Source: Alphaproteobacteria bacterium
GTDB lineage: Bacteria; Pseudomonadota; Alphaproteobacteria; Geminicoccales; Geminicoccaceae
Assembly: GCA_030431615.1 (NCBI GenBank)
Contig: JAUIID010000026.1
Coordinates: 1 to 37,343 of the forward strand
Direction: 5' to 3'
DNA length: 37,343 nucleotides
In this document: one piece after another, positions 4,986 through 27,811 of the stretch
Numbering within the stretch: position 1 is the stretch's first letter
Layout of the letters: each line of letters begins with the position of its first letter
The notes under the pieces: generated by a model
The model's input: the letters and a program-made list of their open reading frames with translations, nothing else
Told to the model about the DNA's origin: nothing
Database searches by the model: none
Made by a program: the position numbers and the translations under genes

Positions 4986-5092
4986 GGTCCGACGAAACGT
5001 CTTTATTTCCGGGCTGCCCTGTGGCAAGCTGACCTCCAAGTAAGTAAGTGGTTGGCCATGCAGGCAAAACGCCATCAGGGAGGCAAGCGGCA

Positions 5093-6082
5093 ATGAGCTT
5101 TCACGCGAGGATCATGGGTGCGGCGCTGGCTGGCGCCACGCTGGCATGCGCCACGGCCGCCTCAGCCGAGACCCTGCGGCTCGGGCACGACCAGCCGGAG
5201 GCGCACGGCTATCAGGAGGTCGGTGTCCACCTCGACAAGCGGCTCAAGGAAGAGCTGGGCGACGACTGGGCCGTGACCATCTTCCCGGGTGCCCAGCTCG
5301 GCAACGAGATGGCGATGCTCGACAGCGTCATCGCCGGCAATCTCGACATGTCGATCGCGGCCTCGGCCAACGCCTCGACCTTCATCCCCGAGCTCGGGCT
5401 CTTCAGCGTCAGCTACGTGTTCGACGATGTCGACCACTTCCGCCGCGTGCTGAACGACGCCGAGTTCAATGCGATGATCGACGAGATCATCGCGTCGAAG
5501 GAGCTCGGCATCAAGCGCCTCGCCACCTTCACCGCCGGCGTGCGCAACGTCTACAACCGCGACAAGCCGATCACCTCGCTCGACGACCTCGACAGCATGA
5601 AGATGCGGGTCATGGCCTCGCCGGTCGAATCCAAGGTCTGGGGCGAGCTCGGCACCCTGCCGGTCGCGATCCCCTTCGGCGACGTCTACACCGGCATGCA
5701 GACCGGCCTCGTCCAGGCCGCCGAGAACGCGGCCGCGGTCTATGCCTCGAACAAGCACTACGAGGTGGCACCCTACTACTCGCTGACCGGCCACCAGTGG
5801 CTGATGGCCAATCTCTACATCAGCCAGGAGGTCTTCGACGGCCTGACGCCGGAGGCGCAGGCGGCACTGGTCGAGGTCGGTGCCGAGCTCACCGACCACA
5901 TCATCGACTACGTGGTCGCGAGCGATGCCGCGTTCGTCGAGAAGATGCAGGCCGAGTACGGCGTGCAGGTGAACGAGGTGGACACGGGCCCCTTCGTCGA
6001 GCGCCTGTCCGCCACCCAGGACGAGGTGGCGGCCGAGCTCGGCGTCGAGAACGTGCTCGCCCGGATCCGCGAGCTGAAATAG
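5093..6082 (+). CDS. TRAP transporter substrate-binding protein, DctP type (copy 1)
   Basis: A 329-residue periplasmic binding protein of a tripartite ATP-independent transporter. I chose the ATG at 5093 instead of the GTG at 5048. It has GGGAGG at 5078-5083 and begins directly with a signal peptide (MSFHARIMGAALAGATLA, cleavage about ATAASA-E). The mature part has RLGHDQPEAHGYQ, IFPGAQLGNE, the conserved ligand-pocket segment MRVMASPVESKVWGELG, and FGDVYTGMQTGLVQAAEN, all characteristic of DctP. It delivers an organic acid or related solute to DctQ/DctM. The next gene encodes a paralogue 52 nt downstream, and one 113-nt tract is nearly identical between the two. The ligand cannot be read: no family member with a known ligand is recognised here. 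Confidence 0.92.
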   Translation: MSFHARIMGAALAGATLACATAASAETLRLGHDQPEAHGYQEVGVHLDKRLKEELGDDWAVTIFPGAQLGNEMAMLDSVIAGNLDMSIAASANASTFIPELGLFSVSYVFDDVDHFRRVLNDAEFNAMIDEIIASKELGIKRLATFTAGVRNVYNRDKPITSLDDLDSMKMRVMASPVESKVWGELGTLPVAIPFGDVYTGMQTGLVQAAENAAAVYASNKHYEVAPYYSLTGHQWLMANLYISQEVFDGLTPEAQAALVEVGAELTDHIIDYVVASDAAFVEKMQAEYGVQVNEVDTGPFVERLSATQDEVAAELGVENVLARIRELK

Positions 6083-6094
6083 GCGAGAAACCCA

Positions 6095-6121
6095 GGGCGG
6101 GTTCCGGTCCGGGGCCCGCCC
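6095..6121 (+). promoter_or_regulatory. intercistronic stem-loop between the two dctP genes
   Basis: GGGCGGG at 6095-6101 is complementary to CCCGCCC at 6115-6121, with a 13-nt loop. The next gene's AAGGAGG ribosome site begins 1 nt after the 3' arm. There is no T run, so this is more likely an mRNA stability or translation-modulating hairpin than a terminator. Confidence 0.5.
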
Positions 6122-6134
6122 CAAGGAGGACACG

Positions 6135-7139
6135 ATGCAGAATGCCACGATGAGGGGCGCGCTCGGGGTAACGGCGACCGCCATGGCGCTGGTCATGGGC
6201 TGGTCCGCCGATGCGCTGGCGCAGAAGGTGCTGCGGCTCGGCCACGACCAGGTGACCGCCCATACCTACCAGCACACCACCGAGTACTTCGCCGAACGGG
6301 TGAAGGAGCTGAGCAACGGCGAGCTCGAGGTGCAGATCTTTCCGGGCGCCACGCTCGGCACCGAGACGTCGATGCTGCAGGAGGTCATCTCCGGCAATCT
6401 CGACATGTCGGTCTCGACCACCGCCAACGCCTCGAGCTTCGTGCCGTCCTTCGGCATGCTCAGCGTCAGCTACCTCTTCAGCGACGGCGACCACTTCAAG
6501 CGGACGCTTCTCGACGAGGGCTTCACCGCCGAGCTCGATGCGCTGATCGAGGCCCAGGACCCGGGCTTCATCCGCGTCGCCTCGATCACCCCGGGGGCGC
6601 GCAGCGTCTACAACATCTTCGGCCCGGTCGAGGCGCTCGACGACATCGAGGGCAAGAAGATGCGGGTCATGGCCTCGCCGGTCGAATCCAAGGTCTGGGG
6701 CCAGCTCGGCACGCTGCCGGTCGCGATCCCCTTCGGCGACGTCTATACCGGCATGCAGACCGGCCTCGTCGAGGCGGCGGAGAACTCGCCCGGCTCCTAC
6801 GTGCTGAACAAGCACTACGAGGTCGCCCCCTACTTCTCGCTGACCGAGCACCAGTGGCCCGTCTCCCTGATCTTCATGGGCGACACGAGCTGGGAGGGGC
6901 TGAGCGAGGCCGAACGCGAGGTCATCCTCCAGGCCGGCCGCGACACCGCCGCCTTCGGCGTCGACGACGCCATCAACGGCGACAACGCCCTGCTCGAGGA
7001 AATGGCGAGCAAGTACGGCGTCACCGTGAACCGCCTGGATACGGCGCCCTTCGTCGACCAGCTCGCCGCCCTGCAGGACGAGACGGCCGCCGAGCTCGGC
7101 ACCGAGGCGCTCCTCGCCCGCGTCCGCGAGCTGCGCTGA
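6135..7139 (+). CDS. TRAP transporter substrate-binding protein, DctP type (copy 2)
   Basis: A 334-residue paralogue of the preceding gene product, about half identical by eye, with the same order of motifs: RLGHDQVTAHTYQ, IFPGATLGTE, KKMRVMASPVESKVWGQLG, FGDVYTGMQTGLVEAAEN and HYEVAPYFSLTEHQWP. A signal peptide covers about residues 1-30 (TATAMALVMGWSADALAQ). The start ATG follows AAGGAGG at 6123-6129, an excellent ribosome site and stronger than that of copy 1. It should bind an organic acid in the periplasm and hand it to the shared DctQM permease. Two binding proteins with one permease may widen the substrate range, or one copy may act as a sensor. A strong hairpin follows the gene at 7150-7195, as is common after highly expressed binding-protein genes. 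Confidence 0.92.
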   Translation: MQNATMRGALGVTATAMALVMGWSADALAQKVLRLGHDQVTAHTYQHTTEYFAERVKELSNGELEVQIFPGATLGTETSMLQEVISGNLDMSVSTTANASSFVPSFGMLSVSYLFSDGDHFKRTLLDEGFTAELDALIEAQDPGFIRVASITPGARSVYNIFGPVEALDDIEGKKMRVMASPVESKVWGQLGTLPVAIPFGDVYTGMQTGLVEAAENSPGSYVLNKHYEVAPYFSLTEHQWPVSLIFMGDTSWEGLSEAEREVILQAGRDTAAFGVDDAINGDNALLEEMASKYGVTVNRLDTAPFVDQLAALQDETAAELGTEALLARVRELR

Positions 7140-7149
7140 ATGACCGATA

Positions 7150-7195
7150 GAAGCCGTCGGCCGGGGCGCCGATCCATGTCCCGGCCGGCGGCTTC
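7150..7195 (+). promoter_or_regulatory. strong intra-operon stem-loop between dctP copy 2 and dctQ
   Basis: The 16-nt arm GAAGCCGTCGGCCGGG (7150-7165) pairs with CCCGGCCGGCGGCTTC (7180-7195) with one G-U pair and a 14-nt loop. There is no T tract after it, and dctQ begins at 7220. It probably protects the upstream binding-protein mRNA or attenuates transcription into the membrane-subunit genes; that role is inferred from position. Confidence 0.65.
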
Positions 7196-7219
7196 GTCGT
7201 GTCCGGCCCGGGGGCGCGC

Positions 7220-7765
7220 ATGAGCGACTCGCCCGCAGCGACCCCTGGGCCCGCCTATACGCGGCTCTGCTGGCTCAACGAGCGGATCGAGCGGGTCTTC
7301 GCGCTCGCCGCCGGAGCCTGCCTCGCCCTCTTCACTGTGGTCGTCGCCATCGACGTCGTCTACCGCCAGGTGCTGGCCCAGCCGATGATGTGGCCGTCCG
7401 AGTGGTCGGTCATGGCCTTTGTCTGGTCGGTGATGCTGGGGGCTGCCGTCTCCGCCAGCCGGCAGTCGCATTTCGTCGTCGTGCTGGTCGCCGACCGGGG
7501 GCGCGCCGGCGACCACGTGCTGCGCGCCGTCGTGGCCATTGCGGCCGTGCTCTTCTCCCTCGTGCTCGTCTATTTCGGCTGGCGCATGATGATGACCGGG
7601 ACGCGCCGCTTCACCCCGATGATGGGGTATCCCATGACCTACGTCTTCGCCGCCTTCCCGGTGGCCGGCATTGCCTTCCTCCTCTTCTCGGTCGAGCAGC
7701 TCATCGCCGCCGTGCGCCGCTACACGCCACGGCATTCGCCGCACACCGAGGTGGGCGGCGAATGA
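7220..7765 (+). CDS. TRAP transporter small permease, DctQ type
   Basis: A 181-residue membrane protein, usual for DctQ. Four hydrophobic segments are visible: FALAAGACLALFTVVVAIDVV, the WSVMAFVWSVMLGAAVSA helix, VVAIAAVLFSLVLVYFGW, and MTYVFAAFPVAGIAFLLFSV. The pattern DVVYRQVLAQPMMWPSEW and the RQSHFVVVLV segment are typical of the family. The ATG at 7220 is preferred; an in-frame GTG at 7199 would add seven residues and cannot be excluded, as both have G-rich sequence upstream. The 3' end overlaps dctM by 4 nt (ATGA), as in most TRAP operons. Acts with DctM in the inner membrane. Confidence 0.9.
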   Translation: MSDSPAATPGPAYTRLCWLNERIERVFALAAGACLALFTVVVAIDVVYRQVLAQPMMWPSEWSVMAFVWSVMLGAAVSASRQSHFVVVLVADRGRAGDHVLRAVVAIAAVLFSLVLVYFGWRMMMTGTRRFTPMMGYPMTYVFAAFPVAGIAFLLFSVEQLIAAVRRYTPRHSPHTEVGGE

Positions 7766-9057
7766 ACCCGGTCACCGTCCTCTTCGTCAGCTTCTTCGTA
7801 ATGATCGCGCTGCGCGTGCCGGTCGCCTACGCGCTCGCTCTGGCCTCGCTGCTCATCATCGTCCAGGAGGGCCTGCGCGCCGACCTCGTCGTGCAGCAGA
7901 TGTTCCAGGGCCTGAACTCGTTCACGCTGCTCGCCGTGCCCTTCTTCCTGCTCGCCGGCCAGCTCCTCAACAGCGGGCTGATCACCGACCGGCTGATGCG
8001 CCTCGCCGAGGTCATGGTGGGCTGGATCAGGGGCGGGCTCGCGCATATCAACATCGTCGTCTCGATGATCTTCGCCGGCATGTCCGGCTCGTCCACCGCC
8101 GACACCGCGGGCGTCGGCTCGGTCATCATCCCGGCCATGTACAAGCGCGGCTTCGACCGCCGCTTCACCGTGGCGCTGACCGCTGCCTCCTCGACCATGG
8201 GCTCGATCATCCCGCCCAGCATCATGATGGTGGTCTACGGTGCCCAGGGCGGGGTCTCGATCGGCGGGCTCTTCCTCGCTGGCGCCATTCCCGGGCTGAT
8301 GATCGGCCTCGGCATGATGATCTACAGCTACGCCTACGCCATCCACCGGGGCCTGCCGGCCGAGGCGCGGCCGACCGTCAGGGAATTCGCCGTCGCCTGG
8401 AAGGAGGGCTTCCTGCCGCTCCTGGTCCCCGTCATCATCATCGGCGGTGTGCTCACCGGCAAGTTCACGGCGACCGAATCCGGCATGGTCGCCACAGTCT
8501 ACGTGCTCTTCTTGATGTTTGTCTTCTACCGCTCGGCCCGGCTCCGGGAGCTGCCCCGGATCCTCTCCGAGGCCGCCGTGCTCTACTCGCAGCCACTCCT
8601 CGCCGTCGCCGCCGCCAGCGTCTTCGGCTGGTTGCTCGCCTACTTCCAGGCGCCGCAGATGATCATCAACGTCGCCGGCGACGTGACCGGCAGCATCCCT
8701 TTGACGCTGCTCTCGATCATGGTGGTTTTCATCATCGTCGGCACGTTCATGGATGCCATCCCGGCGATCATCATCTTCATGCCGATCGTCAGCAAGCTGC
8801 TCGAGACCAGCGGCGCCAACGCGATCCATGGCGGCATCATCGTCGTCATGACCCTGGCGCTGGGCCTCATCACCCCGCCCTACGGCCTCTGCCTGCTCCT
8901 CGCCTCCGCCATCGGCAAGGTGCCGGTGGTCAGGGTGCTGCCGCACATCATGGCCTTCTACGCCATCATCATCGGCATCATCGTCACGATCATCTTCGTG
9001 CCGGAGCTCGCCCTCTTCCTGCCGCGCCTCGTCATGCCGCAGTTCGTGGGCATCTGA
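7762..9057 (+). CDS. TRAP transporter large permease, DctM type
   Basis: A 431-residue, strongly hydrophobic protein with about 11-13 predicted membrane spans, the usual DctM size. Diagnostic stretches are VPFFLLAGQLLNSG, NIVVSMIFAGMSGSSTADTA, AASSTMGSIIPPSIMMVVYG and the ALGLITPPYGLCLLL segment near the C terminus. It is the sodium- or proton-coupled transport subunit that moves solute delivered by the DctP proteins. Start ATG at 7762 overlaps the dctQ stop, giving translational coupling. It is the last gene of the operon; 134 bp separate it from the convergent maoC gene, and that gap holds a large imperfect palindrome. Confidence 0.93.
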   Translation: MNPVTVLFVSFFVMIALRVPVAYALALASLLIIVQEGLRADLVVQQMFQGLNSFTLLAVPFFLLAGQLLNSGLITDRLMRLAEVMVGWIRGGLAHINIVVSMIFAGMSGSSTADTAGVGSVIIPAMYKRGFDRRFTVALTAASSTMGSIIPPSIMMVVYGAQGGVSIGGLFLAGAIPGLMIGLGMMIYSYAYAIHRGLPAEARPTVREFAVAWKEGFLPLLVPVIIIGGVLTGKFTATESGMVATVYVLFLMFVFYRSARLRELPRILSEAAVLYSQPLLAVAAASVFGWLLAYFQAPQMIINVAGDVTGSIPLTLLSIMVVFIIVGTFMDAIPAIIIFMPIVSKLLETSGANAIHGGIIVVMTLALGLITPPYGLCLLLASAIGKVPVVRVLPHIMAFYAIIIGIIVTIIFVPELALFLPRLVMPQFVGI

Positions 9058-10010: not shown

Positions 10011-10694
10011 CGCAACCTGCTGCATTAGAAGCCATTTTCGCCGTTCACGGCAATCCTACAGGCCGCCCGACCGCGCCCGAAGCCGCATTTTGCCGAAGGA
10101 ACCCGCGGGCTTGCATTCGCTGTAGAAATAGGATAATATACTCAATAGTCGCATGGCCGGTCGCCGGCGGCGTGGCGTTGGTGCAACGATCCGGCTCTCG
10201 AATGCCTGGATGAAACTGCCGCAGCGCCGGGGCCGTCTCACTCCATCCTGGGCACCCCACGGCCGCCGGCCAATAGCTGCGTGAAGTACCGATGAAAATC
10301 AAAGCGAATACGACGATTCGATCATAACCATTCGGTGAACGGCCGGGTAACCGTGAAATCCGGTTGGTTGCTGCAGTGCGTCAAGTCTTCGATCACGCCG
10401 GAGCGCGGCAACGCTTGCAAGTCGATCGGCCCGTCTGCCGCAACATCGACGGGTCAAGTGTTTCAGCGCGATGGCCGAAATTTTCCGGCGACAGAGCGGC
10501 TGCCGATTCTTGGATAGGGCGGCTGTAGTTGATGATCTCCGCCGCGGGCGACATCCGGTCGTTAAGAGCGGGTGGCAATGAGCGTCGACTTTTGGTAGAA
10601 TACAAGCTGGAAACGAAGAGAATGGGCAGCTCGTTCCGGAGCCGACCGGCCGAGAACTGCCGCGTGCAAGCGGGTGGTAATAGGAGCGGTCGCC
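10011..10694. other. long non-coding leader region before the exopolysaccharide locus
   Basis: About 680 bp without a convincing gene. Base composition is less GC-rich than in coding neighbours, and short open frames here (for example 10335-10517) lack a good ribosome site and recognisable sequence. A good sigma70-type promoter lies at 10111-10139. The final stretch 10590-10690 holds AT-richer sequence and the TAGGAG ribosome site of the first exopolysaccharide gene. No tRNA or IS end was seen. Confidence 0.5.
10111..10139 (+). promoter_or_regulatory. candidate sigma70-type promoter
   Basis: TTGCAT (10111-10116) and TAATAT (10134-10139) are separated by exactly 17 bp, and the following bases are AT-rich. 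It is the best sigma70-like pair in this gap. The first gene downstream on this strand starts at 10695, so the transcript would have either a ~550-nt leader or be a small RNA. Confidence 0.5.
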
Positions 10695-12125
10695 ATGAGT
10701 ACGGTGATGGCCCGGGCTGGTATCCTGCGCGACTCCGTGTCGATGCGGGCCATGGATCCCTGGCAGCGTTCATTGGCTGTAACGCTGCGCATCGCGGACA
10801 TAAGCATCGTTCTCCTGGCGGGCTTCGCCAGCTATGCGCTGCGGTTCGACGGTGATTTGCCGGACGAGCATGTGGAGTTCCTGGCGCTGACGCTGGGTGT
10901 GCTGTTCGCGGTCCAATGCCTGACCATCGCCGGTTGCTACAACGAGCGGAGCATCGACCGGCTGTCGAGCCAGCTGCCGCAGGCGGTGGTCGGCTGGTCG
11001 GCAGCGCTCGGCTGCACCCTCGCCACCCTCTTCCTGCTCAAGCAGATCGATCCCCTCTCGCGCATGTGGATCGCGACCTGGTTCGTCCTGGTGCTGGTCG
11101 GGCTCCTGGCGGTTCGCTGCACGGGCAAGCAGCTCATCATCCGCGCCCGGGCGAGCGGGGCACTCCTGCGCCGGGTGGCCATCGTCCGCGAGCAGGGCAT
11201 GTCGCTGGAGCGGATCCTCGACGGCATCGAGGCCAACCCGTCGCTGACGCCGGTTGCCGAGATGGAGGTCGACTTCACCGACCCCGAGCAGGTCGACGCC
11301 GTGATTCGCGAGGTGCCGCGCGTGGGCCAGATCGAGCAGCTGGTGCTGGTGTGCAACCCGGCGCATACGGTCGCGCTCAGCCGCATCGTCGAGGCGCTCC
11401 GCCAGTTTCCGATCGAAGTCAGCCTCGTCAGCGGCGTGCTCGCCAAGGAGCTCCCGGTCATCGGCATGCGCGCCATCGGCTCCTTGCCCGCCACGGTCCT
11501 GGTCGAGCGGCCTCTCGACGGCCCCGTGTCCACGCTGAAGGATGCGTTCGACCGGCTGGTCGCCCTGGGACTGCTCGTCCTGCTGGCGCCGCTGATGCTC
11601 CTCGTGGCGCTCGCCATCAAGCTGGACAGCCCTGGCCCCGTGCTCTTCCGCCAGATGCGCGTGGGGTTCGATCGCAAGCGGATCGAAGTGCTCAAGTTCC
11701 GCACCATGCGCCACGAGCTCTGCGACGCGCCCGGTGCCGTAACCGTGACGCAGGCGACGCGCGACGACCACCGGGTAACGGCGGTGGGTCGCATCCTGCG
11801 GCGCACCAGCCTCGACGAGCTGCCGCAGCTCCTGAACGTGCTGAAGGGCGAGATGTCCCTCGTCGGGCCGCGTCCGCACGCCGTCGCCCACAACGACCAC
11901 TATGCCGCGCTGATCGACGGCTATCTGGGCCGCCACCGGGTCAAGCCGGGCATTACCGGCTGGGCCCAGGTCAATGGCTGCCGCGGCGAGACGATCACGG
12001 TCGACGACATGCGGCGGCGGATCGCCCTGGACCTGCAATATATCGACAACTGGTCGCTGGGGCTGGATCTGAAGATCCTGCTGCGCACTCCACTCGTCGG
12101 CCTCGTCAATGAGAAGGCGTACTGA
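10695..12125 (+). CDS. polyprenyl-phosphate sugar-1-phosphate transferase (exopolysaccharide initiation)
   Basis: A 476-residue enzyme of the WcaJ/ExoY/PssY group that transfers the first sugar phosphate to undecaprenyl phosphate at the inner membrane. The N-terminal half has about four hydrophobic segments (ADISIVLLAGFASYALRF onward) and a cytoplasmic CoA-binding-like region. The last ~190 residues form the bacterial sugar transferase domain: a membrane hairpin (LVALGLLVLLAPLMLLVALA), then KLDSPGPVLFRQMRVGFD, FKFRTM-like VLKFRTMRHE, RRTSLDELPQLLNVLKGEMS, LVGPRPHA and KPGITGWAQVNG. Start ATG at 10695 has TAGGAG at 10681-10686. It is the first gene of the polysaccharide locus. The sugar it transfers (glucose, galactose or other) cannot be told from sequence alone. 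Confidence 0.93.
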   Translation: MSTVMARAGILRDSVSMRAMDPWQRSLAVTLRIADISIVLLAGFASYALRFDGDLPDEHVEFLALTLGVLFAVQCLTIAGCYNERSIDRLSSQLPQAVVGWSAALGCTLATLFLLKQIDPLSRMWIATWFVLVLVGLLAVRCTGKQLIIRARASGALLRRVAIVREQGMSLERILDGIEANPSLTPVAEMEVDFTDPEQVDAVIREVPRVGQIEQLVLVCNPAHTVALSRIVEALRQFPIEVSLVSGVLAKELPVIGMRAIGSLPATVLVERPLDGPVSTLKDAFDRLVALGLLVLLAPLMLLVALAIKLDSPGPVLFRQMRVGFDRKRIEVLKFRTMRHELCDAPGAVTVTQATRDDHRVTAVGRILRRTSLDELPQLLNVLKGEMSLVGPRPHAVAHNDHYAALIDGYLGRHRVKPGITGWAQVNGCRGETITVDDMRRRIALDLQYIDNWSLGLDLKILLRTPLVGLVNEKAY

Positions 12126-16430: not shown

Positions 16431-17786
16431 TTAGCCGCCGGCCTCCCTGTGCCGATCGAACTGCCGGAGCCGTGCCCCGACATAGCCGACGAATGTCAGC
16501 ATCATCACGCCCTGCATCGATGCTGCCACAGCTATAGCCAGCGTTGCCTCGCCACCCTGCCGGGCGATCACGATCACGACCAGCGCACCGAGCACGGCAC
16601 GAACCGTCTCGATGATGGCGTAGGACGCCTGGATATTGAACAGGGCGGTCGCGGTGCGCGCCGGAAAGCCGATGAGATAGGCAAAGCTGGCGAGGGCGAT
16701 CCAGCGGGCGTAATGCCCGGCCTGCTCCCATTCCGCGCCGAAGATCAACGCGAAGAGCGGTGGACCGAAGAGGATGATGCAGCCGAACGGCACGAGCGAG
16801 GTCAGGGCGAGCGTGGCGGTGGAGCGCCAGTAGAGTTTCGAGACCGGTTGACCGTGCTTTCGCTGGTCAGCCGCGTGTTGATAGTAGACCCGGGCGACGT
16901 TCGAGCCCCAGATGATTGCCGGTCGCTCGAGCAGGCGGTTGGCGAACCAGTAGAAGCCGACGGCGTCGAGGGCATAGAACATGCCGAGCATGACGGGCAG
17001 CAGCTGCTGGCTCAGCTGGCCGAAGATCGCAGCCGGCAGCTGGTAGGCGGGAAAGCGCCAGTGGCGAACCGCCATGAGGCGCATCCGGCGGAAACTGATG
17101 GCGCGCAGGCCCTGCCTGCCGATCTGGCGCATGACCTGTTGCATGCCGTGCAGCGCGGCGGCCGCCGTACCGAGCCAGCGACCGACAATCAGGCCATAGG
17201 GCCCCGCGCCGATGAGGCCGAAGGTAATCTGGGAGAGGGCAATGCCGCCGCCCTCGATGAGGCGATTGATCAGCTGCGGTCGAAAGTTCCCGTGCCGGGT
17301 CTCCCAGAGGCGGGTCACGGACAGCACGTTGACCACGATGATGAACGCCGGGATGGTCCAGAGATAGGGCGCCACCCCGATCAGGGAGCCTGGCAGCAGG
17401 CCGGGATTGAATTGCAGGTAGAGCGCCGCCAGCAGGGCCAGCGCGGCGCATAGCGGGATCAGCGTCAGCGAGAGAAAGAGGACGTTGATAGCCTCGCTGC
17501 GGCTCCGCGAGATGCCGACCGCGATATAGAAGAGACCGGTGGCCATAAGCTCGGGCACGGCGCCCAAGGCCTGAACCAGGCCGGCAATGCCGAAATCTGC
17601 CGGATCGAACAGTCGCGCGACGATCGGCGCGCTGGCGAAGGTGATGAGATTCTGCAGCAGCGAGGCGGAGGTCAGGATGGCGAGCCCGCGCACGAAGGTG
17701 CTGCGCGAGACGCGGGACCAGGTCATCCCAAAGGTTCTCTCGGCGATCGAGACGAGGCGCCGCATCGGGCCGGGTCCCCCCGCCAT
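16431..17786 (-). CDS. Wzx-like polysaccharide flippase (MATE/MOP superfamily)
   Basis: A 451-residue integral membrane protein with about 12 hydrophobic segments and the start typical of oligosaccharide flippases: FVRGLAILTSASLLQNLITF, then APIVARLFDPADFGIAGLVQ. GLIGAGPYGLIVGRWLG and the RPAIIWGSNVARVYYQHAADQ segment are also usual. It should move the lipid-linked repeat unit across the inner membrane. ATG at 17786 is used; an ATG seven codons later at 17765 is a possible alternative. It is on the opposite strand from the first five genes of the locus and shares its strand with the sulfotransferase upstream of it, 163 nt away. Family assignment is secure; the exact polymer is not known. Confidence 0.9.
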   Translation of the reverse strand: MAGGPGPMRRLVSIAERTFGMTWSRVSRSTFVRGLAILTSASLLQNLITFASAPIVARLFDPADFGIAGLVQALGAVPELMATGLFYIAVGISRSRSEAINVLFLSLTLIPLCAALALLAALYLQFNPGLLPGSLIGVAPYLWTIPAFIIVVNVLSVTRLWETRHGNFRPQLINRLIEGGGIALSQITFGLIGAGPYGLIVGRWLGTAAAALHGMQQVMRQIGRQGLRAISFRRMRLMAVRHWRFPAYQLPAAIFGQLSQQLLPVMLGMFYALDAVGFYWFANRLLERPAIIWGSNVARVYYQHAADQRKHGQPVSKLYWRSTATLALTSLVPFGCIILFGPPLFALIFGAEWEQAGHYARWIALASFAYLIGFPARTATALFNIQASYAIIETVRAVLGALVVIVIARQGGEATLAIAVAASMQGVMMLTFVGYVGARLRQFDRHREAGG

Positions 17787-17949: not shown

Positions 17950-18732
17950 TCATGCCGCAAGCTGATTTTTTGCTGTCTCATAAATCTCGAAATTTATGGT
18001 GCTCAAGGCTTCGATTTTCCGACGAGCTGTCGGCGTCAAGAGATCCGTCTTCTCACCTGCCTTGGATTCGCTCTTGTTGGCATGACCGATCCAGAGGCGC
18101 ACGCCGAGTATCTCGGATAACCGCCGCCTGAACTTCGCCATATCCTCGAGAATGCCGACAAGAGTAAATTTTCGAAGATTTTCGGTGGAGAGTTGCACGG
18201 CCTGATTGTTCGAAATCAGCTTGTCTTGCGGCAGCTCAGAAAAATACAAGGCATAAAAAGTTCCAAACAGTTGCGCAAGCGGTGTATCAAGAAACTCTTC
18301 CAAAGTGTAGTCGATCTTCCACCGCTCTTCATCTGAATAGAACATTTGTAAATAAAATGAAACAAAGAATTCCACAGGATCTCGCAGTGTGGTTATAAAA
18401 TGGTACTTGTCTGAAAAAAGGGAGTGCGCTCGGTTTGAGAAATAGACATGGCCGGCTATGCAGCGAATGTCTTGGTAGAGATAGTCGAGCAGCTGAATTT
18501 CGCGGATGCGCGCGCTGTGCAAGTCCAGATCGTCGGCATTGAATTCGGGGCGAAGCGTCTCGATTGAACTATAAAGGGAGCGAAGCGGGAAGGTTTGGTA
18601 TGAAATTCCGTATCTGATCCGCAGCGAACGTTCGATCGACGTCCCACCGCATTTGGGCACATGGTGGAAAACGACCCGGTGACCGCAAAGCGAGTCCACT
18701 ACAGTTTTTCGAATCCGCGAAATGCCTTGCAT
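17950..18732 (-). CDS. sulfotransferase family protein
   Basis: A 260-residue protein with the two PAPS-binding elements of sulfotransferases: the 5'-phosphosulfate loop HHVPKCGGTSIERSL near residues 23-37 and the 3'-phosphate motif FITTLRDPVEFFVSFYLQMF near 112-131. GHVYFSNRAHSLF lies between them, as in the Sulfotransfer_2 group that modifies carbohydrates. It probably adds sulfate to a sugar of the exported polymer, or less likely to another carbohydrate. Codon use is much more AT-rich than in neighbouring genes (many AAA, ATT, GAA codons), a sign of transfer from another lineage. ATG at 18732 has AAAGGA just upstream. It is transcribed toward the flippase gene. Confidence 0.85.
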   Translation of the reverse strand: MQGISRIRKTVVDSLCGHRVVFHHVPKCGGTSIERSLRIRYGISYQTFPLRSLYSSIETLRPEFNADDLDLHSARIREIQLLDYLYQDIRCIAGHVYFSNRAHSLFSDKYHFITTLRDPVEFFVSFYLQMFYSDEERWKIDYTLEEFLDTPLAQLFGTFYALYFSELPQDKLISNNQAVQLSTENLRKFTLVGILEDMAKFRRRLSEILGVRLWIGHANKSESKAGEKTDLLTPTARRKIEALSTINFEIYETAKNQLAA

Positions 18733-19402
18733 TGTCCTTTGGACTTGCCTTCTTCGGTGTGCCAGAGAGTCGCGGATCGCGATTCTTTAGAGAGGCGTCC
18801 GGTCGACGGCGCCATGCGCTATTTGCGCAACGCGCCGTTCACCAAGGAGTTATCCGAGTTAAAGACAGCGACGAACTCGGTTGCGTCACGCCTCTTTCTT
18901 GAATTGCTTTGGGGTGGAACGCAACCCGCAACGATGAAGGCGGACGATTTCATGCAGGTCGGCCCCGTTGCTGCAGACCGCCCGAAATTTCCCGGAGGCT
19001 CGATGGGGTGGGGAGGAATGGGGCCGAATGGCCTCCCGAGGTGGGCACTCCTGGAACCGGCCATGACACGGGCGGCGCCCTGCGGCGAAGTGTCTGCCTC
19101 GGTCGACGTTTTGGGGAGAAAACGCGCATCGCGATCGACAGCCAGTTTCGGATCGCAGACAACTGTTTGAAAGTGCAGCCGTTCCATCTGCTCGCGCAAA
19201 AGATCGTTGCAACGGTGCGATATCTACTATAGGTAGAATTGGGGTTCGATTCCGGGCTGAGCGACCTTGTTGCAACAGGCGCGGGAATAAACGCTCGCCA
19301 TGCCCGTCTGTGAACTATCCGTATCCGCGGTTGGATACGCAAACGCTACCGAAGCCCTAACCGGGCGTCCCTTAGCATCACCGCCTACGCCGGAGCTATG
19401 GC
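18733..19402. other. 670-bp gap between divergent sulfotransferase and secreted-protein genes
   Basis: No convincing gene. Overlapping open frames of 100-170 codons exist on both strands (for example 18661-19170 plus and 18819-19199 minus) but none shows recognisable motifs or a good ribosome site. The composition is intermediate between the AT-richer sulfotransferase and the normal genome. The right end has GTTGCAAC at 19206-19213 and 19269-19276 and a short palindrome at 19320-19339, and should hold the promoter of the secreted protein. Confidence 0.45.
19320..19339. promoter_or_regulatory. short inverted repeat upstream of the secreted-protein gene
   Basis: CGTATCC (19320-19326) and GGATACG (19333-19339) form a perfect 7-bp inverted repeat around 6 nt, 64 bp before the ATG at 19403. 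It could be an operator or a leader hairpin. Confidence 0.35.
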
Positions 19403-21118
19403 ATGAATTTTCGTTACCTGAGCCGTCATCTCTTGAGTTCGGCTGTCGCTGCCTCATTGATGATGGTCACGGCGACGAGCAGTTTCGCCCAAACTGCTTG
19501 TTCCGCCCCAAAAGACGTCTTTCTCAACCCCTTCAGCAAGAACAGTGCGCACCATCGTCCAATCGGCACTGGCGCGCAGTATGCCAGCAGTTCACATGCC
19601 GCAACGCGGGACTGGTTGAAGGCCGGTTCACTGGCAATCAACGTGGGTGGCCCGTGGGGTGTCGACGCTGTCCGCGTGGCATCTTCGGATCCTGTCCACC
19701 GCGTTACCGGCAAGAGCAATGGCATTGGTCTTCCGGCATCGGTCCGTCTGCCTCGCGGGGGACTGATCACCAATATCCAGTACAGCTCGATCGGTTCCTA
19801 CGACGGCGTGGCCGTCATTTATGACCAGACCTCTGGTACTGCTCATGAGATGTTTCAGTATGACTGGAACGGCGGACGGCCATTGGCCAGCATCCACAAG
19901 ACGTGGAACATTCGGGGACTGGGACATGGCACCGCAAGTGGACAACGGCTAGGCACCAGCGCTTCCGGCGTTGCCATGCTGTTTGGTATCCTGCGGGGCT
20001 ATGAGATCAACACCGCCGGGCACGAGATCGGCCATGCGCTGCAGATCGGTCTGCCCGCCTTTCCCAACTGCAAGATGATGCTGTCCAAGCAGGTCGTTCT
20101 TCCGGCAACGGCCCGCGACGCGTTCGCGTCCAACGCCGGCTACAATACCGGGAATATTCCGTACGGTGCGCTGATGGCCCTGCCGCGGAACATCAACATC
20201 AACAGCCTCGGGCTGTCGGAGCCGGGGCGCCGCCTGGCCCGTGCGCTTCAGAACTACGGTGCTTATGTCGTCGACAATGCGGGCTGTGGTGGTGGGGCAA
20301 TCCGCGCCGATCAGGACGTGAAGTCGCAGATCCGCAACCAGCTCAGCGGTGACATTCCGAAGATCTACAAGCACATGCGGATGGTGCTCAACAACAGTAA
20401 CGTCCTGGGAACGGCGGTTGCCGGTGGCGGCCAGCCGCTCGCTCCGAATTGTGCCTTCGACGCCGGTGCTACATCCAACGTCGCCAGTGCGCCGTCCACC
20501 GGACAAGCGACGGCCCAGAATCCGTCGTCCGGCTCGAACACGAGTGCCGGCAACACGTCTGGCAGCTCGGGTTCTAGCCAGTCCTCGGCGACTGCTGGCA
20601 ACAAGCAGCCGCAGCCGGGTACCGCGGCTGCCGTGAACTGGGAAAAGGCCGTCCAGTTCTACAAGTGGGCGATGATGGGCAAGGACGCCATGAAGGTGTA
20701 CCAGCCCGGCACCGCCAAGTACGCGAACGCGAAGGAAGGCTACGAGCGCAACATCCGGCTTTATGTCGAGCATGCCGCCCGCGCCGGCATCAAGGTGGAT
20801 GCCAACACGTCTCCCACCCAGGCGCTTGCCGGCGGCTCTTCCGGATCGACCAGCACGGCTTCGAACTCGACCGCGTCGAGCTCGAACAAGCAGCCGCAGC
20901 CGGGTACCGCGGCTGCCGTGAACTGGGACAAGGCCGTCCAGTTCTACAAGTGGGCGATGATGGGCAAGGACGCCATGAAGGTGTACAAGCCCGGCACCGC
21001 CAAGTACGCGAATGCGAAGGAAGGCTACGAGCGCAACATCCGGCTCTACGTGGAGCACGCTGCTCGTGCCGGCGTGACCGTGACCGCCGATACACCGCCC
21101 CACAATGTGTTTGCCTGA
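19403..21118 (+). CDS. secreted protein of unknown function with two C-terminal 63-residue repeats
   Basis: A 571-residue exported protein. Residues 1-30 are a signal peptide (SAVAASLMMVTATSSFAQ, cleavage after FAQ). Residues ~31-350 form one domain beginning NPFSKNSAHHRPIGTG, with few Cys and many Gly; I do not recognise it with certainty. It contains HEIGH at 207-211, which fits an HExxH zinc pattern by letters but has no clear third ligand. A Ser/Thr/Gly-rich linker (about 355-399) leads to two near-identical modules at 400-462 and 495-557 (QPQPGTAAAVNW, FYKWAMMGKDAMKVY, KYANAKEGYERNIRLYVEHA), joined by a second Ser-rich linker. Lying inside an exopolysaccharide locus, it may bind, cleave or anchor the polymer; this is inference. 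A perfect hairpin follows the gene. Confidence 0.85.
   Translation: MNFRYLSRHLLSSAVAASLMMVTATSSFAQTACSAPKDVFLNPFSKNSAHHRPIGTGAQYASSSHAATRDWLKAGSLAINVGGPWGVDAVRVASSDPVHRVTGKSNGIGLPASVRLPRGGLITNIQYSSIGSYDGVAVIYDQTSGTAHEMFQYDWNGGRPLASIHKTWNIRGLGHGTASGQRLGTSASGVAMLFGILRGYEINTAGHEIGHALQIGLPAFPNCKMMLSKQVVLPATARDAFASNAGYNTGNIPYGALMALPRNININSLGLSEPGRRLARALQNYGAYVVDNAGCGGGAIRADQDVKSQIRNQLSGDIPKIYKHMRMVLNNSNVLGTAVAGGGQPLAPNCAFDAGATSNVASAPSTGQATAQNPSSGSNTSAGNTSGSSGSSQSSATAGNKQPQPGTAAAVNWEKAVQFYKWAMMGKDAMKVYQPGTAKYANAKEGYERNIRLYVEHAARAGIKVDANTSPTQALAGGSSGSTSTASNSTASSSNKQPQPGTAAAVNWDKAVQFYKWAMMGKDAMKVYKPGTAKYANAKEGYERNIRLYVEHAARAGVTVTADTPPHNVFA
20600..20788 (+). repeat. 189-bp coding repeat, copy 1
   Basis: Encodes residues 400-462 of the secreted protein. 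It matches copy 2 (20885-21073) almost base for base over the first ~155 nt, then differs mostly at silent positions. Repeat start-to-start distance is 285 bp (95 codons). Confidence 0.9.
20885..21073 (+). repeat. 189-bp coding repeat, copy 2
   Basis: Second copy of the module, residues 495-557 of the secreted protein. Amino-acid differences from copy 1 are very few (Glu to Asp after NW, Gln to Lys before PGTAKY). The clustered silent changes at the 3' end suggest recent homogenisation of the 5' part. Confidence 0.9.
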
Positions 21119-21506: not shown

Positions 21507-22373
21507 ATGCGCGATGAAGTTCGTCCAAAAGATTCGGTGGCTGGTTCCGTTCGCCGTTGGTATGATGAGCACGGCTGGCAGCGCGATGTTGGAACCGGAC
21601 TTTTTCACGACACAGCCACATTCAGCGGCGCTGGCACCGGGTCGGCTGGCGCTGCCCTTTACGAGGCGGAGTCCTACAAGGACCTCAATCCCTTTTTCGG
21701 AACCGGCCGCCATTTTCTCGATGCAGCGTCCGGGCCGATCGCGCATGGCGAATATCTGCCATGGTCGGCGGGCTATACGAACAGGATATGCGTGGATATA
21801 TCCGTGGTCGCCTTGCGCGAGGCGCGCGCTCGCGCCGGCACGCATGGCATCTACATCAATGGCGATCTGACCCGGCTGCCGCTGCGGGACGGCTCGATCG
21901 ACGGCGGGGTCTCGGCCTATACGATCCAGCACATCGACGCCGAGCAGCAATTGGCTGCATTGCAGGAACTGACCCGGGTCCTCGCCCCCGGGCGGAGCTT
22001 CTGCATCATCACCGGTATCGAGCCGCCACTTCGACGTTGGGCGTTCGCGATGCTGCGGCCGCTGCTGCGCAAGCATACCTACAAGCACAAGCAGCGGGTC
22101 GGCTCCCTCTACTACCACGCACGAACGCCGGAATGGTGGCGCTCGACCCTGCAGGGCCTGGGCGTTCAGGTGGAGATGCGCACGTTGCGACTCCTGAGGA
22201 TGAACGAGTACAAGCTGCTGTTCGGCAGCTCGATTCGTCACGTCCGCTGGCTTCGATTCGTGGAGAGAAAGTGCCCCAGGCTGTCCCTGGTGCTTGCCGA
22301 GAGTGCGGTCGTTCTCGTCACCAAGGTCGAACCTCGCGCGGCCACGTCGCCGGGCGGGCGGGTTCCGGCATAG
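21507..22373 (+). CDS. class I SAM-dependent methyltransferase
   Basis: A 288-residue protein with a class I methyltransferase core. Motif I is HFLDAASGP (a less common form of the Asp-x-Gly-x-Gly loop), motif II is NRICVDISVVALREAR, then GDLTRLPLRDGSIDGG and YTIQHIDAEQQLAALQELTRVLAPGR as in the Methyltransf_11 group. The first ~50 residues (VRRWYDEHGWQRD) resemble the lead-in found in enzymes of O-antigen and exopolysaccharide loci. The C-terminal part (LRPLLRKHTYKHKQR, YHARTPEWWRSTL) probably forms a substrate lid. It should methylate a sugar or lipid-linked precursor. The ribosome site is weak. The second methyltransferase gene follows 22 nt downstream, so they form a pair. Confidence 0.85.
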   Translation: MRDEVRPKDSVAGSVRRWYDEHGWQRDVGTGLFHDTATFSGAGTGSAGAALYEAESYKDLNPFFGTGRHFLDAASGPIAHGEYLPWSAGYTNRICVDISVVALREARARAGTHGIYINGDLTRLPLRDGSIDGGVSAYTIQHIDAEQQLAALQELTRVLAPGRSFCIITGIEPPLRRWAFAMLRPLLRKHTYKHKQRVGSLYYHARTPEWWRSTLQGLGVQVEMRTLRLLRMNEYKLLFGSSIRHVRWLRFVERKCPRLSLVLAESAVVLVTKVEPRAATSPGGRVPA

Positions 22374-23144: not shown

Positions 23145-24365
23145 CTAAACTCTCAGTGACCCGCCCTTGAGGCCGGGGAATTCGCCCCTGAGGAGCGAAG
23201 CGAGGAGCGAGGTCGACAACACGATCGCGAGCCAGCCGGCCAGCATCGGCGTGCGGAAATAGCCGTTGTCGACAACCGAGGTTATCACGATCGCCAGGAC
23301 GATGGCCCGCCCGTAGTCGCCGACGCGCATCCAGAGCCCGAGCAGGAATGTAGCGGGGATCAGGAGCCCGACGATGCCGTGGTCCGTCAGGAAATACAGA
23401 TAGTCGTTGTGCGATATCAGCGTATCGTCGCCCCAGCCCCATTGCGGGGTCCACATGTTGTCCGCGCCGACGCCACTGCCGAACAGCAGCGTCACGAGAT
23501 CCCGCTCGGCGATGAGCTGGATACGATATTGCCAGGTGCCGATGCGCCCGCTGCCCCAGGACTCGATGTCCGTCCCGACCTGAAGCGCAATGATCGCTGC
23601 GGTAACAGCAAGGACGAACCCGAGAGCCGGCAGCCACCGTACGACGAAGTCCTGGCGATAATTGCAGTAAAACAGGTAAGCCCAGTAAATTGCCACGAAC
23701 AGGAGCTGCGCGCGGGCGCCGTAGCCATCCATCAGGATGACGCAGATACCGATCATTGCCCAGGCCACCACCGGGTTCATCAGCCTGGCACGGCGCAACA
23801 GATCGAGCAGGACGATCTGGAGGGCCACGAACTTCGCGCTCAGGTGGACCTGGTCGAAGCCACCGGTCAGCGACGCAAATCGCAGAAAGCCATCGTTTAT
23901 GTTGTAGACGAATTGCGGTTCGGTCAGGACGATGTAGCCCGCATAGACCGTGCCGAAGATGGCCGCACCCTTCAACAGGCGCACCGGCAGCGCCAGGGGG
24001 TAACTCAATGTCCAGATCATCATCAATGGCAGGACGAGCCGGCGGCTCAGCTCGGCCATGTCGAGGCCGCGCATCTCACTCAGACCCAGCATGTGCGGGG
24101 GCAAAAGGACGGCAATGTTGATCGTCGCGGAAAGCAGCAGGATCATCGCCCAATGCGCCCGTCGGAGCAGCAAGGTCACGGCAGCCAGGGTCAGATGAAT
24201 TGCCGCCAGCATGGCAGACAGCGGAAGGCGGAGCTCGGGGTGCCAGTTGAACGTGAAGATATTGAGCAACTGGAGAACGATGACGACGCTGAAGGCACCG
24301 TAGATGATGCCCTTGGGCACATCTTCCAGCAGGCTCGGTGCGGTATCGGGGGTGACCGTTGCCAT
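23145..24365 (-). CDS. Wzy-like polymerase / O-antigen ligase family protein
   Basis: A 406-residue integral membrane protein with about 10-12 spans. A large periplasmic loop near residues 265-315 carries RIGTWQYRIQLIAERDL, LFGSGVGADNMWTPQWGWGD and ISHNDYLYFLTDHGIVGLL. The pattern R...GSG.G......H.D....L...G..G is the hallmark of the O-antigen ligase/Wzy superfamily (WaaL-like His in the loop). In a locus with an initiating transferase, flippase and co-polymerase it most likely polymerises repeat units in the periplasm. The start ATG at 24365 lies 35 nt after the GT2 gene on the same strand, so the two belong to one operon with the Wzz/BY-kinase. Confidence 0.88.
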   Translation of the reverse strand: MATVTPDTAPSLLEDVPKGIIYGAFSVVIVLQLLNIFTFNWHPELRLPLSAMLAAIHLTLAAVTLLLRRAHWAMILLLSATINIAVLLPPHMLGLSEMRGLDMAELSRRLVLPLMMIWTLSYPLALPVRLLKGAAIFGTVYAGYIVLTEPQFVYNINDGFLRFASLTGGFDQVHLSAKFVALQIVLLDLLRRARLMNPVVAWAMIGICVILMDGYGARAQLLFVAIYWAYLFYCNYRQDFVVRWLPALGFVLAVTAAIIALQVGTDIESWGSGRIGTWQYRIQLIAERDLVTLLFGSGVGADNMWTPQWGWGDDTLISHNDYLYFLTDHGIVGLLIPATFLLGLWMRVGDYGRAIVLAIVITSVVDNGYFRTPMLAGWLAIVLSTSLLASLLRGEFPGLKGGSLRV

Positions 24366-25426: not shown

Positions 25427-27811
25427 TCATGACTTCTCGAGGTAATATTTCTTGTGCTTGCCATGATACTGGCCAGCGTCGCCATAGGTGTAGTTCGCCG
25501 CGCGGCGAATATCGACGCGGGACAGCACCAGGCCGATGATCGAAGCACCGCTCTGGGCGAGCTGACGAACCGCGAACGTCACTGTTGGCTTGCGGGTCTT
25601 GCCCCAGCGAACGACGAAGATCGTGGCGTCGACAGCCTGGGCGATCACTGGCGCATCGGCGACGGAGAGGACCGGCGGCGAATCGATGATGATCAGCTCG
25701 TAGAGCTCGCGGGCATCGTTGACTATCTCGGCAAGCTGGCCGCCGATCAGAAAATCATGGGCGTGCGGAATGAGCTTTCCGGCCGTGATCAGATACGCGC
25801 CCGAAACCGGGTCCTGGCGTACGACCTCCTCGACGCTTCTCTGGCGGGACATCAGCTCGGTAAGCCCTGGCGTCGAGGGCAGGCGCAACATGGCGGCGAC
25901 GCTCGATTGGCGGAAATCCGCGTCGATGAGCAGAACCCGGCGACCGGCCCTAGCGTGCATCTGCGCCGTGCATAGCGCCAGGCTGGACTTGCCTTCCTCT
26001 GGCTCCGACGACACGAACTGGAAGACGGCCGATCGCCGGTCGCCGCGAAGGAGCAGCATGCGCGCGTTGATCGCCCGCAAGGCTTCGCTCACCGCGGTAT
26101 TCGGATGGTCGTGCAGATAATTGTGGAGGCCACGTTTGCGGACCGCGCGTATGCGTCCAAGATCGGGCACCGAGGAGAGCACCGGAAAGCCCAGCTCTTC
26201 CTCCAGCTGCGAGGCGCTGCGGAAAACGGCGTCGAACCGCTCGAGCAGCAGAGCCAGGGCCACGCCGATCACCCCACCGACGACGATCGCTGCGGCGACG
26301 GCCAGCGTCTTGCGCGGATAGGACGGATTGCGCGGTATGGCCGAATAGGAAATGACGGTGGCATCGGCCCGATAGGCGCCGAGGTCGTCTTGTGACTTCA
26401 ACTCCTGGGATTGTTGCAGAAAGGTTTCGAGCAGCGTGCGTGCGGCGCTCGCCTCGCGTTCCAGGGCGCGCAGGGTCACCGAAGCCTGATTGGAATCCGA
26501 GACGCGGTCCTCGAGCTGGCGCATGCCTTCCTCGAGCAGGCGCTCACGCTCGCGCGCGACGTTCACCTCCGCCTGCATGCTGTCGGCGATGCGAGCGGTC
26601 TCAGATCGTATCTTGCCTTGCAGATCCTCAAGCTCGGCCTGGGCGCTGAGCAGAAGCGGATGGCGAGCGCCGTAGACCTGCGAGAGATCGGCAACCTTGC
26701 GTCGAAGCCCTACTTCCTGCTCGACCAGCGAGCTGATAAGCGGCGAGCCCAGGACCTCGGTGGCGCTGGCGAGGCCTTCACCACCGGCGTTGAGGAGGCG
26801 GCGGACCTGGTCGCGTCGCGCCTCCCGTTCGGCGCGCTCGGTACGCGCCAGGATCAGTTGGCTGTTGAGCTCGGACACCTGCTGTGCAGCCACGGTCCCG
26901 CCGTCGGTCTCGAGCAGTCCCGTCTGGCCCCGATACTCCTCGACCGCAGCCTCGGCTACCGAGACCTGATCGCGCAATTCGCCGATGCGCTCATCGAGCC
27001 AGCCCGTCGTACGCTGGATCTCGTCGAACTTTGCCTCGAGGCGCTGCTGCAGGTAGCTGTCGGCGACGGCATCCGCCAGCTGGGCCGCCATGGTCGGCCG
27101 CTCCGAGGTAAAGCTGATCTCGATGACGGTCGAGTTTGGCACAGTGTCGACCGTCAGACGGTCGAGGAAGCCGTCGAGGATGTACTCGTTGAACATGCGC
27201 TCGCCGATGTCGTCGGTGGTTCCCTCGGCGACTGGATCGGCATTTTCGGGATCGGCGGCGGAGAGCATTTCGAGGTCTTCGCCGATTGCCGGAGAGGAGA
27301 GCCCGGCATAGCCGAGCCCCATCGAGATCATCGCTCGCAGCTTCTGCCGCAACCGGGTGAGGAACGGCTCGGGCTGCAGTTCGGGGTTGAACTCGGGATC
27401 GGCCCGCAGATCGAGGTTGTCGATGACCCGCTGCGCCACGGTGCGCGAGCCGATGACCTGGATCTGCTCAGTCGGCAGCTTCTGGTTGATCAATCCCGGC
27501 AACAGGTTGATCTGCTGCTCCTCGAACAGCAACTTCACGCTGGCAGTATAGAGCGGCGTCATGTTCATCACGACGCCCGCGGTGGCGCCGGCGAAGAACA
27601 GGGTCGAGAAGATGATCAGCCACTTGCGCCGCCAAAGCGTCAGCAGCGCTTCCTTGAGATCGATGTCGCCGAGATCGGCGTAGGCCTTCAGTGTCTGGCT
27701 GCGATCGGCCGCGGACAACGCATCGTTAGAAACGGCCAGCCGCGGGAGACTCTCAGCCACGGTCTGTCGCGACGCCAAAGCAGGTTGCCGGCAACGCGCC
27801 CATGGAGCCAC
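25427..27811 (-). CDS. fused Wzz co-polymerase / bacterial tyrosine kinase (BY-kinase)
   Basis: A 794-residue protein that controls polymer chain length and export by tyrosine phosphorylation. An N-terminal Wzz domain begins with DLKEALLTLWRRKWLIIFST and membrane span 1 at ~62-82. A long coiled-coil-rich periplasmic part (~255-470) follows, then a GNVR-like region ending RNPSYPRK and membrane span 2 at ~502-523. The cytoplasmic kinase has Walker A SSEPEEGKSS (601-610), Walker A' VLLIDADFR (626-634) and Walker B LIIIDSPPV (706-714). The C-terminal tyrosine cluster has five Tyr (774, 776, 782, 789, 790). No ATG exists near the N terminus; GTG at 27811 is used, and GTG at 27760 is possible. It heads a minus-strand operon with the GT2 and polymerase genes. 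Confidence 0.92.
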   Translation of the reverse strand: MAPWARCRQPALASRQTVAESLPRLAVSNDALSAADRSQTLKAYADLGDIDLKEALLTLWRRKWLIIFSTLFFAGATAGVVMNMTPLYTASVKLLFEEQQINLLPGLINQKLPTEQIQVIGSRTVAQRVIDNLDLRADPEFNPELQPEPFLTRLRQKLRAMISMGLGYAGLSSPAIGEDLEMLSAADPENADPVAEGTTDDIGERMFNEYILDGFLDRLTVDTVPNSTVIEISFTSERPTMAAQLADAVADSYLQQRLEAKFDEIQRTTGWLDERIGELRDQVSVAEAAVEEYRGQTGLLETDGGTVAAQQVSELNSQLILARTERAEREARRDQVRRLLNAGGEGLASATEVLGSPLISSLVEQEVGLRRKVADLSQVYGARHPLLLSAQAELEDLQGKIRSETARIADSMQAEVNVARERERLLEEGMRQLEDRVSDSNQASVTLRALEREASAARTLLETFLQQSQELKSQDDLGAYRADATVISYSAIPRNPSYPRKTLAVAAAIVVGGVIGVALALLLERFDAVFRSASQLEEELGFPVLSSVPDLGRIRAVRKRGLHNYLHDHPNTAVSEALRAINARMLLLRGDRRSAVFQFVSSEPEEGKSSLALCTAQMHARAGRRVLLIDADFRQSSVAAMLRLPSTPGLTELMSRQRSVEEVVRQDPVSGAYLITAGKLIPHAHDFLIGGQLAEIVNDARELYELIIIDSPPVLSVADAPVIAQAVDATIFVVRWGKTRKPTVTFAVRQLAQSGASIIGLVLSRVDIRRAANYTYGDAGQYHGKHKKYYLEKS

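Follow-up and report, generated by a model that had tools for sequence, protein, structure and literature searches.

A putatively secreted modular protein in a polysaccharide locus carries a domain of an unnamed phage-and-bacterial family with a probable carbohydrate-enzyme fold

A modular protein gene within a Wzx/Wzy-type locus

We analysed a window of 37,343 nucleotides, which is one whole contig of its assembly and contains a Wzx/Wzy-type polysaccharide locus (Table 1). Beyond the right end of the locus lie amidase, exonuclease, HD phosphohydrolase, argS, SPOR and GH3 genes. Encoded within the polymer biosynthesis locus is a modular protein gene, positioned between the sulfotransferase and methyltransferase genes as the earlier note on this DNA had described. 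Its ATG is preceded at a distance of 7 bases by GGAG, and the GC content at the three codon positions (0.57/0.53/0.75) is coding-like. The GC content falls to 0.52–0.59 at positions 18001–20000, compared with 0.66 for the window, and this local dip suggests that the sulfotransferase and the modular protein gene are later arrivals in the locus.

Table 1 Features of the window, with residue numbers referring to the 571-residue protein
Feature	Position	Strand	Remark
TRAP transporter: two consecutive DctP solute-binding genes, then one DctQ and one DctM	5048–9057		left of the locus
Initiating sugar-phosphate transferase (Bac_transf)	10674–12125	+	
Epimerase	starts 12285		
WecG	starts 13348		
GT4	starts 14172		
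FkbM methyltransferase	starts 15202		
Wzx-type flippase (Polysacc_synt_3)	16431–17786	−	
Sulfotransferase (Sulfotransfer_2)	17950–18732	−	E 9e-6
Putatively secreted modular protein gene, 571 aa	19403–21118	+	intact ORF, ATG start
Signal-peptide-like segment, residues 1–29	19403–19489	+	judged by eye
N-terminal domain, residues 39–350	19517–20452	+	phrog_17388-type, predicted double-psi β-barrel-like
Conserved E201 and H211	20003–20035 (20003–20005, 20033–20035)	+	
Invariant D239 codon	20117–20119	+	A6 position 212; position computed from residue number
Invariant D291 and acidic D303 at +12	20273–20311 (20273–20275, 20309–20311)	+	candidate catalytic pair, MltA/3D analogy
Ser-rich linker 1, residues 351–399	20453–20599	+	
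Basic module 1, residues 400–466	20600–20800	+	direct repeat, composition
Ser-rich linker 2, residues 467–494	20801–20884	+	
Basic module 2, residues 495–561	20885–21085	+	direct repeat, composition
Perfect 14-bp inverted repeat, 3-nt loop	21142–21172 (21142–21155/21159–21172)	+	no T-run
Methyltransferase	21507–22373	+	
Second methyltransferase	starts 22303		
Wzy-like polymerase	23145–24365	−	Wzy_C E 6.5e-4, under Pfam cut-off
GT2	starts 24401	−	
Wzz/Wzc-type chain-length protein with kinase-like ATPase	25427–27811	−	

The protein begins with a signal-like segment, followed by a domain of about 310 residues and then by two basic modules, each preceded by a Ser-rich linker. Judged by eye, the N-terminus resembles a Sec signal, with an Arg-bearing n-region, a hydrophobic core and an SFA|QT cleavage site. 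The layout thus agrees with the earlier note, which had listed a signal peptide, a large unassigned domain and Ser-rich linkers (14 Ser in 49 residues of linker 1 and 10 in 28 of linker 2). The two near-identical 63-residue modules rich in Lys, Tyr and Trp were likewise confirmed. They match at 61/63 residues and fall within a 231-nt direct repeat (20600–20830 and 20885–21115) whose copies are 88% identical, far beyond chance. Across the 63 core codons the copies differ at 10 nucleotides, leaving 8 codons synonymous and changing 2 (E15D and Q35K). Taken as 67 residues, the modules contain 8 Lys, 5 Tyr and 2 Trp, with pI values of 9.6 and 9.8. Searching 289 genomes of the class for the module returned this gene only, besides a chance-like 36-column match with stops, while the search of plasmids gave a single match (E 5).

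The earlier note had also given the gene its own terminator. A perfect stem does follow the stop codon, but it lacks a T-run and was not called in a terminator scan; it is not a canonical intrinsic terminator, although it may nonetheless end transcription.

Relatives on phage tails and in secreted bacterial proteins

Using PHROGs, we found that phrog_17388, annotated 'minor tail protein', matches the N-terminal domain (E 2.2e-21; residues 42–337 against profile positions 194–468 of 702). Pfam and NCBIfam returned nothing meaningful for the window protein, and single and profile sequence searches of the PDB gave no meaningful match. In the strict sense, therefore, the protein is not unrecognised, as had been thought: its domain belongs to a PHROG phage tail protein family, and most of the relatives found are phage tail proteins. 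By tBLASTn, 69 of 50,697 phage records matched the domain, all from Gordonia phages and one annotated 'glycosylhydrolase'. In 7 Gordonia phages of several genera whose surroundings were read, the domain gene lies among tail, head or packaging genes. Matches were also found in 6 of 72,556 plasmids, and profile-guided scans added 17 bacterial-genome loci together with viral contigs, several of the latter being one contig counted twice. Foldseek against BFVD gave 5 matches at E ≤ 0.001, four of them at E ≤ 1e-17, a Gordonia minor tail protein included.

Among the bacterial relatives are secreted proteins from Rhizobium, Bradyrhizobium, Mitsuaria and Massilia as well as from cyanobacteria and actinobacteria, and by record titles the family spreads over six phyla. 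In some relatives the domain stands alone behind a signal-like start; in others it is fused to NPCBM and PA14 (L028), a ricin lectin (L038, L041), LamG (L002) or a phage baseplate-hub protein (L053). NPCBM, PA14, ricin-lectin and LamG partners are typical of glycan-directed proteins. On the basis of these sequence matches, we regard the domain as an unnamed family that occurs both on phage tails and in proteins secreted by bacteria. The family profile matched 5 of 398 genomes of the phylum and 2 of 385 of the class, own genome included in both counts. The whole window protein was found in its own genome only among 145 genomes, and no close homologue of it was confirmed among bacterial genome contigs or viral contigs.

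A far branch (L015, L016, L018 and L109) comprises proteins of ~20% identity that consist of the one domain, look secreted and begin with a PADNAWNRD-type sequence. In two viral contigs, L080 and L088, the domain lies at the end of exceptionally long frames (1591 and 1996 codons); Pfam found no match in 1545 residues of the L054 frame, which is identical to L080. The Massilia terrae contig NZ_JANUGU010000004.1 has two domain genes (L031 and L032), 96% alike and ~18 kb apart. In a phylogenetic tree of the domain, L025, from a Candidatus Saccharibacteria MAG, is nested in the Gordonia phage clade, and for this reason its contig may represent a phage that was placed in the MAG during binning. The near-identical viral rows L044, L047, L049 and L052 and the far members L015, L016 and L018 were left out of this tree, in which L053 and L054 carry the label 'bact', although both are of viral origin and correspond exactly to the contigs L081 and L080.

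The closest relative found is a 751-residue protein combining LamG with the domain, encoded on contig C278 of the same assembly (G000:C278, L002). It shares 37–39% identity with the window protein over ~235–243 residues, as well as an SAHHR motif, and differs from it in having LamG_3 in front, no C-terminal modules and an acidic domain. The two are sisters in the tree with support of 100/99; long branches make other placements unsure, and L002 is itself long-branched. C278 (34 kb) has genes of major head, tape measure, tail and tail-fibre type, with the domain gene (L104:7735–9987) located between tail genes and an endolysin; the adjacent frames (L104:1309–4953, 4953–7001 and 7153–7698) had no PHROG match. 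Between C278 and the window there is no nucleotide similarity besides short chance matches which, together with the modest protein identity, indicates that any exchange between them is old. No relatives of the C278 copy were found in viral contigs. The assembly comprises 314 contigs, with 96.9% completeness and 4.94% estimated contamination, and C278 may be an integrated phage or a free phage binned into it.

The earlier note had reasoned that homologues mainly outside polysaccharide loci would speak against its reading, and a survey of the neighbours of bacterial relatives partly bears this objection out. Among 14 loci scanned in part (1–6 genes per locus; 10 of the 17 bacterial-genome loci and 4 plasmid loci, two of these by deposited annotation), 6 lie clearly beside polysaccharide genes, 1 is suggestive and 7 showed none. 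The 6 are from Bradyrhizobium barranii, Mitsuaria, Rhizobium rhododendri, Williamsia, an Oscillatoriales genome and Massilia terrae, where one domain copy adjoins a MurJ/Wzx-like flippase; the suggestive neighbourhood is that of Massilia timonae. No polysaccharide genes were seen among the 1–4 neighbours each in Planococcus, Actinomycetospora lemnae, Anabaena, Telluria, Herminiimonas, Labilithrix and Rhizobium grahamii.

Predicted fold, conserved residues and charge

The earlier note had proposed structure prediction and a fold search for both domain types; this was carried out for the N-terminal domain. MltA entries ranked first for both of two models, at low Z (3.0–5.1), and Foldseek against the PDB returned nothing at E ≤ 0.001 for either. 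The model of the window domain, built from 25 rows, was mediocre (pLDDT 65.6), and in VIA-align it retrieved MltA entries only (Z 3.1 and 3.0). A model of the Massilia terrae relative, built from 37 rows, reached pLDDT 93.2 and pTM 0.91, and VIA-align of this model against 879 chains gave 10 rows with Z of at least 2. At the top were MltA 7esj (175 residues aligned, 5.3 Å), whose Z of 5.1 is under the level that VIA-align deems safe, and MltA 2pi8 (Z 5.0). These were followed by LtgG (4.2), YuiC (3.2 and 2.9), Sugarwin (3.1) and, weakest, three RNA polymerase largest subunits (2.2–2.4); LtgG, Sugarwin and the polymerase subunits contain double-psi barrels. The double-psi β-barrel is thus found in 9 of the 10 rows, with one F1-ATPase subunit as the outsider. 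MltA is stated to contain such a barrel (PMC8562663), and YuiC has been likened to it (PMC4499186). The aligned parts cover both ends of the Massilia model, which fits a barrel interrupted by an insert; MltA is built that way.

Kinship with MltA by profile was rejected: hhalign against 19 MltA sequences, and against their 3D domain alone, gave a probability of about 0 at three settings each, and neither the Pfam 3D (PF06725) nor the MltA profile matched the window protein at E ≤ 10. On the basis of the models, the N-terminal domain probably shares a split double-psi-barrel architecture with MltA. Given the low Z, the Foldseek result and the profiles, we claim this architecture and not membership of the MltA family.

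An alignment of 25 rows shows no variation at nine positions, which in window numbering are E201, H211, P234, D239, Y247, Q283, Y285, G286 and D291, and the same set is mostly kept in the 37-row alignment. D291 closes a strand in the Massilia model. Of 55 distinct rows, 45 have an acid 12 residues beyond it (10 lack one there), a spacing picked after inspecting the alignment, and 50 have one within +9 to +13. In MltA, D297 and the catalytic D308 are 11 residues apart (PMC4499186), and by analogy it is suggestive that D291 and D303 correspond to this pair. When the three Asp of MltA are compared, D239 and D291 are conserved, and the third one in the 3D motif is without an invariant counterpart.

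The window domain has a pI of 9.9, the highest among the 55 rows, and a net charge of +12, while its C278 sister has a pI of 5.4 and a net charge of −12. A basic domain is also seen in several rows from Massilia and in the one from Anabaena, so the trait is not unique to the window. Taken together, the basic domain, the basic modules and the adjoining sulfotransferase fit a polyanionic target; the charge contrast with C278 means that the two proteins need not share one polymer substrate.

Possible functions and comparison with known systems

With a little less than even confidence, we favour the explanation that the protein is secreted, represents a new family of enzymes that cleave glycans, and has as its target the polymer of its own locus, perhaps sulfated, with the basic modules holding that polymer. 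It would leave the cell via the Sec pathway and work outside the inner membrane, and its substrate would be the polysaccharide from the surrounding Wzx/Wzy-type locus. An anionic or sulfated polymer is plausible because the sulfotransferase is the next gene. The N-terminal domain, as a split double-psi barrel of MltA type, would most likely cut glycan chains, with catalysis by conserved acids, D291 foremost, and with D303, E201 and H211 as other possible participants; the two modules, together with the flexible Ser-rich linkers, may keep the enzyme on the polymer. Glycan enzymes encoded inside exopolysaccharide clusters are a known pattern (PMC9075953, PMC8829089), with roles such as the clearing of stray polymer reported for AlgL, and a similar housekeeping role is the natural guess. 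A carbohydrate-directed secreted protein in a polysaccharide locus, with a domain and repeat modules, is what the earlier note had envisaged, and the Wzx/Wzy gene set, the lectin, NPCBM, PA14 and LamG fusions and the carbohydrate-enzyme-like fold support it. Its observation is right; as an interpretation, it named the correct kind of protein but fell short of the full identity.

We regard as possible, if doubtful, the broader proposal that a new depolymerase family, built on a barrel like that of MltA, is used by phages on their tails and by bacteria within the capsule locus, here shifted in charge (+12 versus −12) and with modules added for a sulfated polymer.

Somewhat unlikely, in our estimate, is a non-catalytic binding protein, in which a glycan-recognition domain, used by phages for adsorption, would cross-link the capsule or anchor it to the cell. 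The phage relatives are located where receptor-binding proteins sit, and the repeated basic modules, flexible linkers and weak match to enzyme folds are consistent with binding. However, E201, H211, D239, Q283, Y285 and D291 are kept in very distant members, a pattern more active-site-like than lectin-like, and relatives already bear separate lectin or CBM domains.

We judged it distinctly less probable that the protein is a peptidoglycan lytic transglycosylase, which would open the wall to let polymer out or, in phages, to let DNA in. The fusion of L053 to a baseplate hub, a place where wall-cutting domains occur, would suit such a role. The draft genome also has no 3D-domain (MltA) match, which 21 of 25 genomes searched have, two congeneric ones included, but in an assembly of 314 contigs and 96.9% completeness this absence may reflect a gap. 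The nearest folds, MltA, LtgG and YuiC, cut peptidoglycan (PMC4499186); against this, there is no sequence kinship with MltA/3D, and the NPCBM, ricin, LamG and PA14 partners are not known wall-binding domains.

A phage-gene relic with no present role is very unlikely: the nearest relative identified lies on a phage contig and the GC dip at 18001–20000 is compatible with this origin, but the 571-codon frame is intact, with a signal-like start, a coding base pattern and module differences that are mostly silent. A zinc metalloprotease is barely credible and was rejected, as the HEIGH string at residues 207–211, although it fits HExxH, is private to the window sequence (1/55 rows), relatives having YIPHA, GPRHA and similar and keeping the last His (H211) alone.

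The finding is an unnamed phage-and-bacterial domain family with a probable carbohydrate-enzyme fold, which recurs on phage tails, on CBM- or lectin-bearing secreted proteins and in polysaccharide loci without a Pfam or PDB sequence match. If the family cuts glycans, it would represent a new fold among capsule depolymerases, explain a 'minor tail protein' that is common among Gordonia phages and supply candidate enzymes, ready for use on exopolysaccharides of bacteria.

In tail location, the phage relatives of the domain resemble capsule depolymerase tailspikes. The Massilia model is mixed and barrel-like, in contrast to a right-handed parallel β-helix; the tailspikes described are typically trimeric β-helices (PMC13385381). 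In the open-licence PMC literature, we found nothing on a depolymerase tailspike with a double-psi β-barrel and nothing connecting the tail protein of Gordonia phages to a depolymerase, a glycosylhydrolase or exopolysaccharide.

PslG, AlgL and PelA are periplasmic or secreted glycan enzymes encoded inside the locus of their own polymer, as the window protein may be. Their folds differ from that predicted for the window domain, and to our knowledge enzymes of this type have no duplicated basic modules. MltA/3D-domain lytic transglycosylases belong to GH102. They and YuiC may resemble the window domain in the predicted insert-split barrel and a similarly placed Asp, but show no significant sequence or profile similarity to it, and their three-Asp set is not fully conserved in the window family. 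Gordonia tail proteins of phrog_17388 (such as GalacticEye gp9 and Stormageddon gp18) have a homologous domain with ~30% identity; in contrast to these, the window domain is borne by a putatively secreted bacterial protein, accompanied by basic modules and encoded in a capsule locus.
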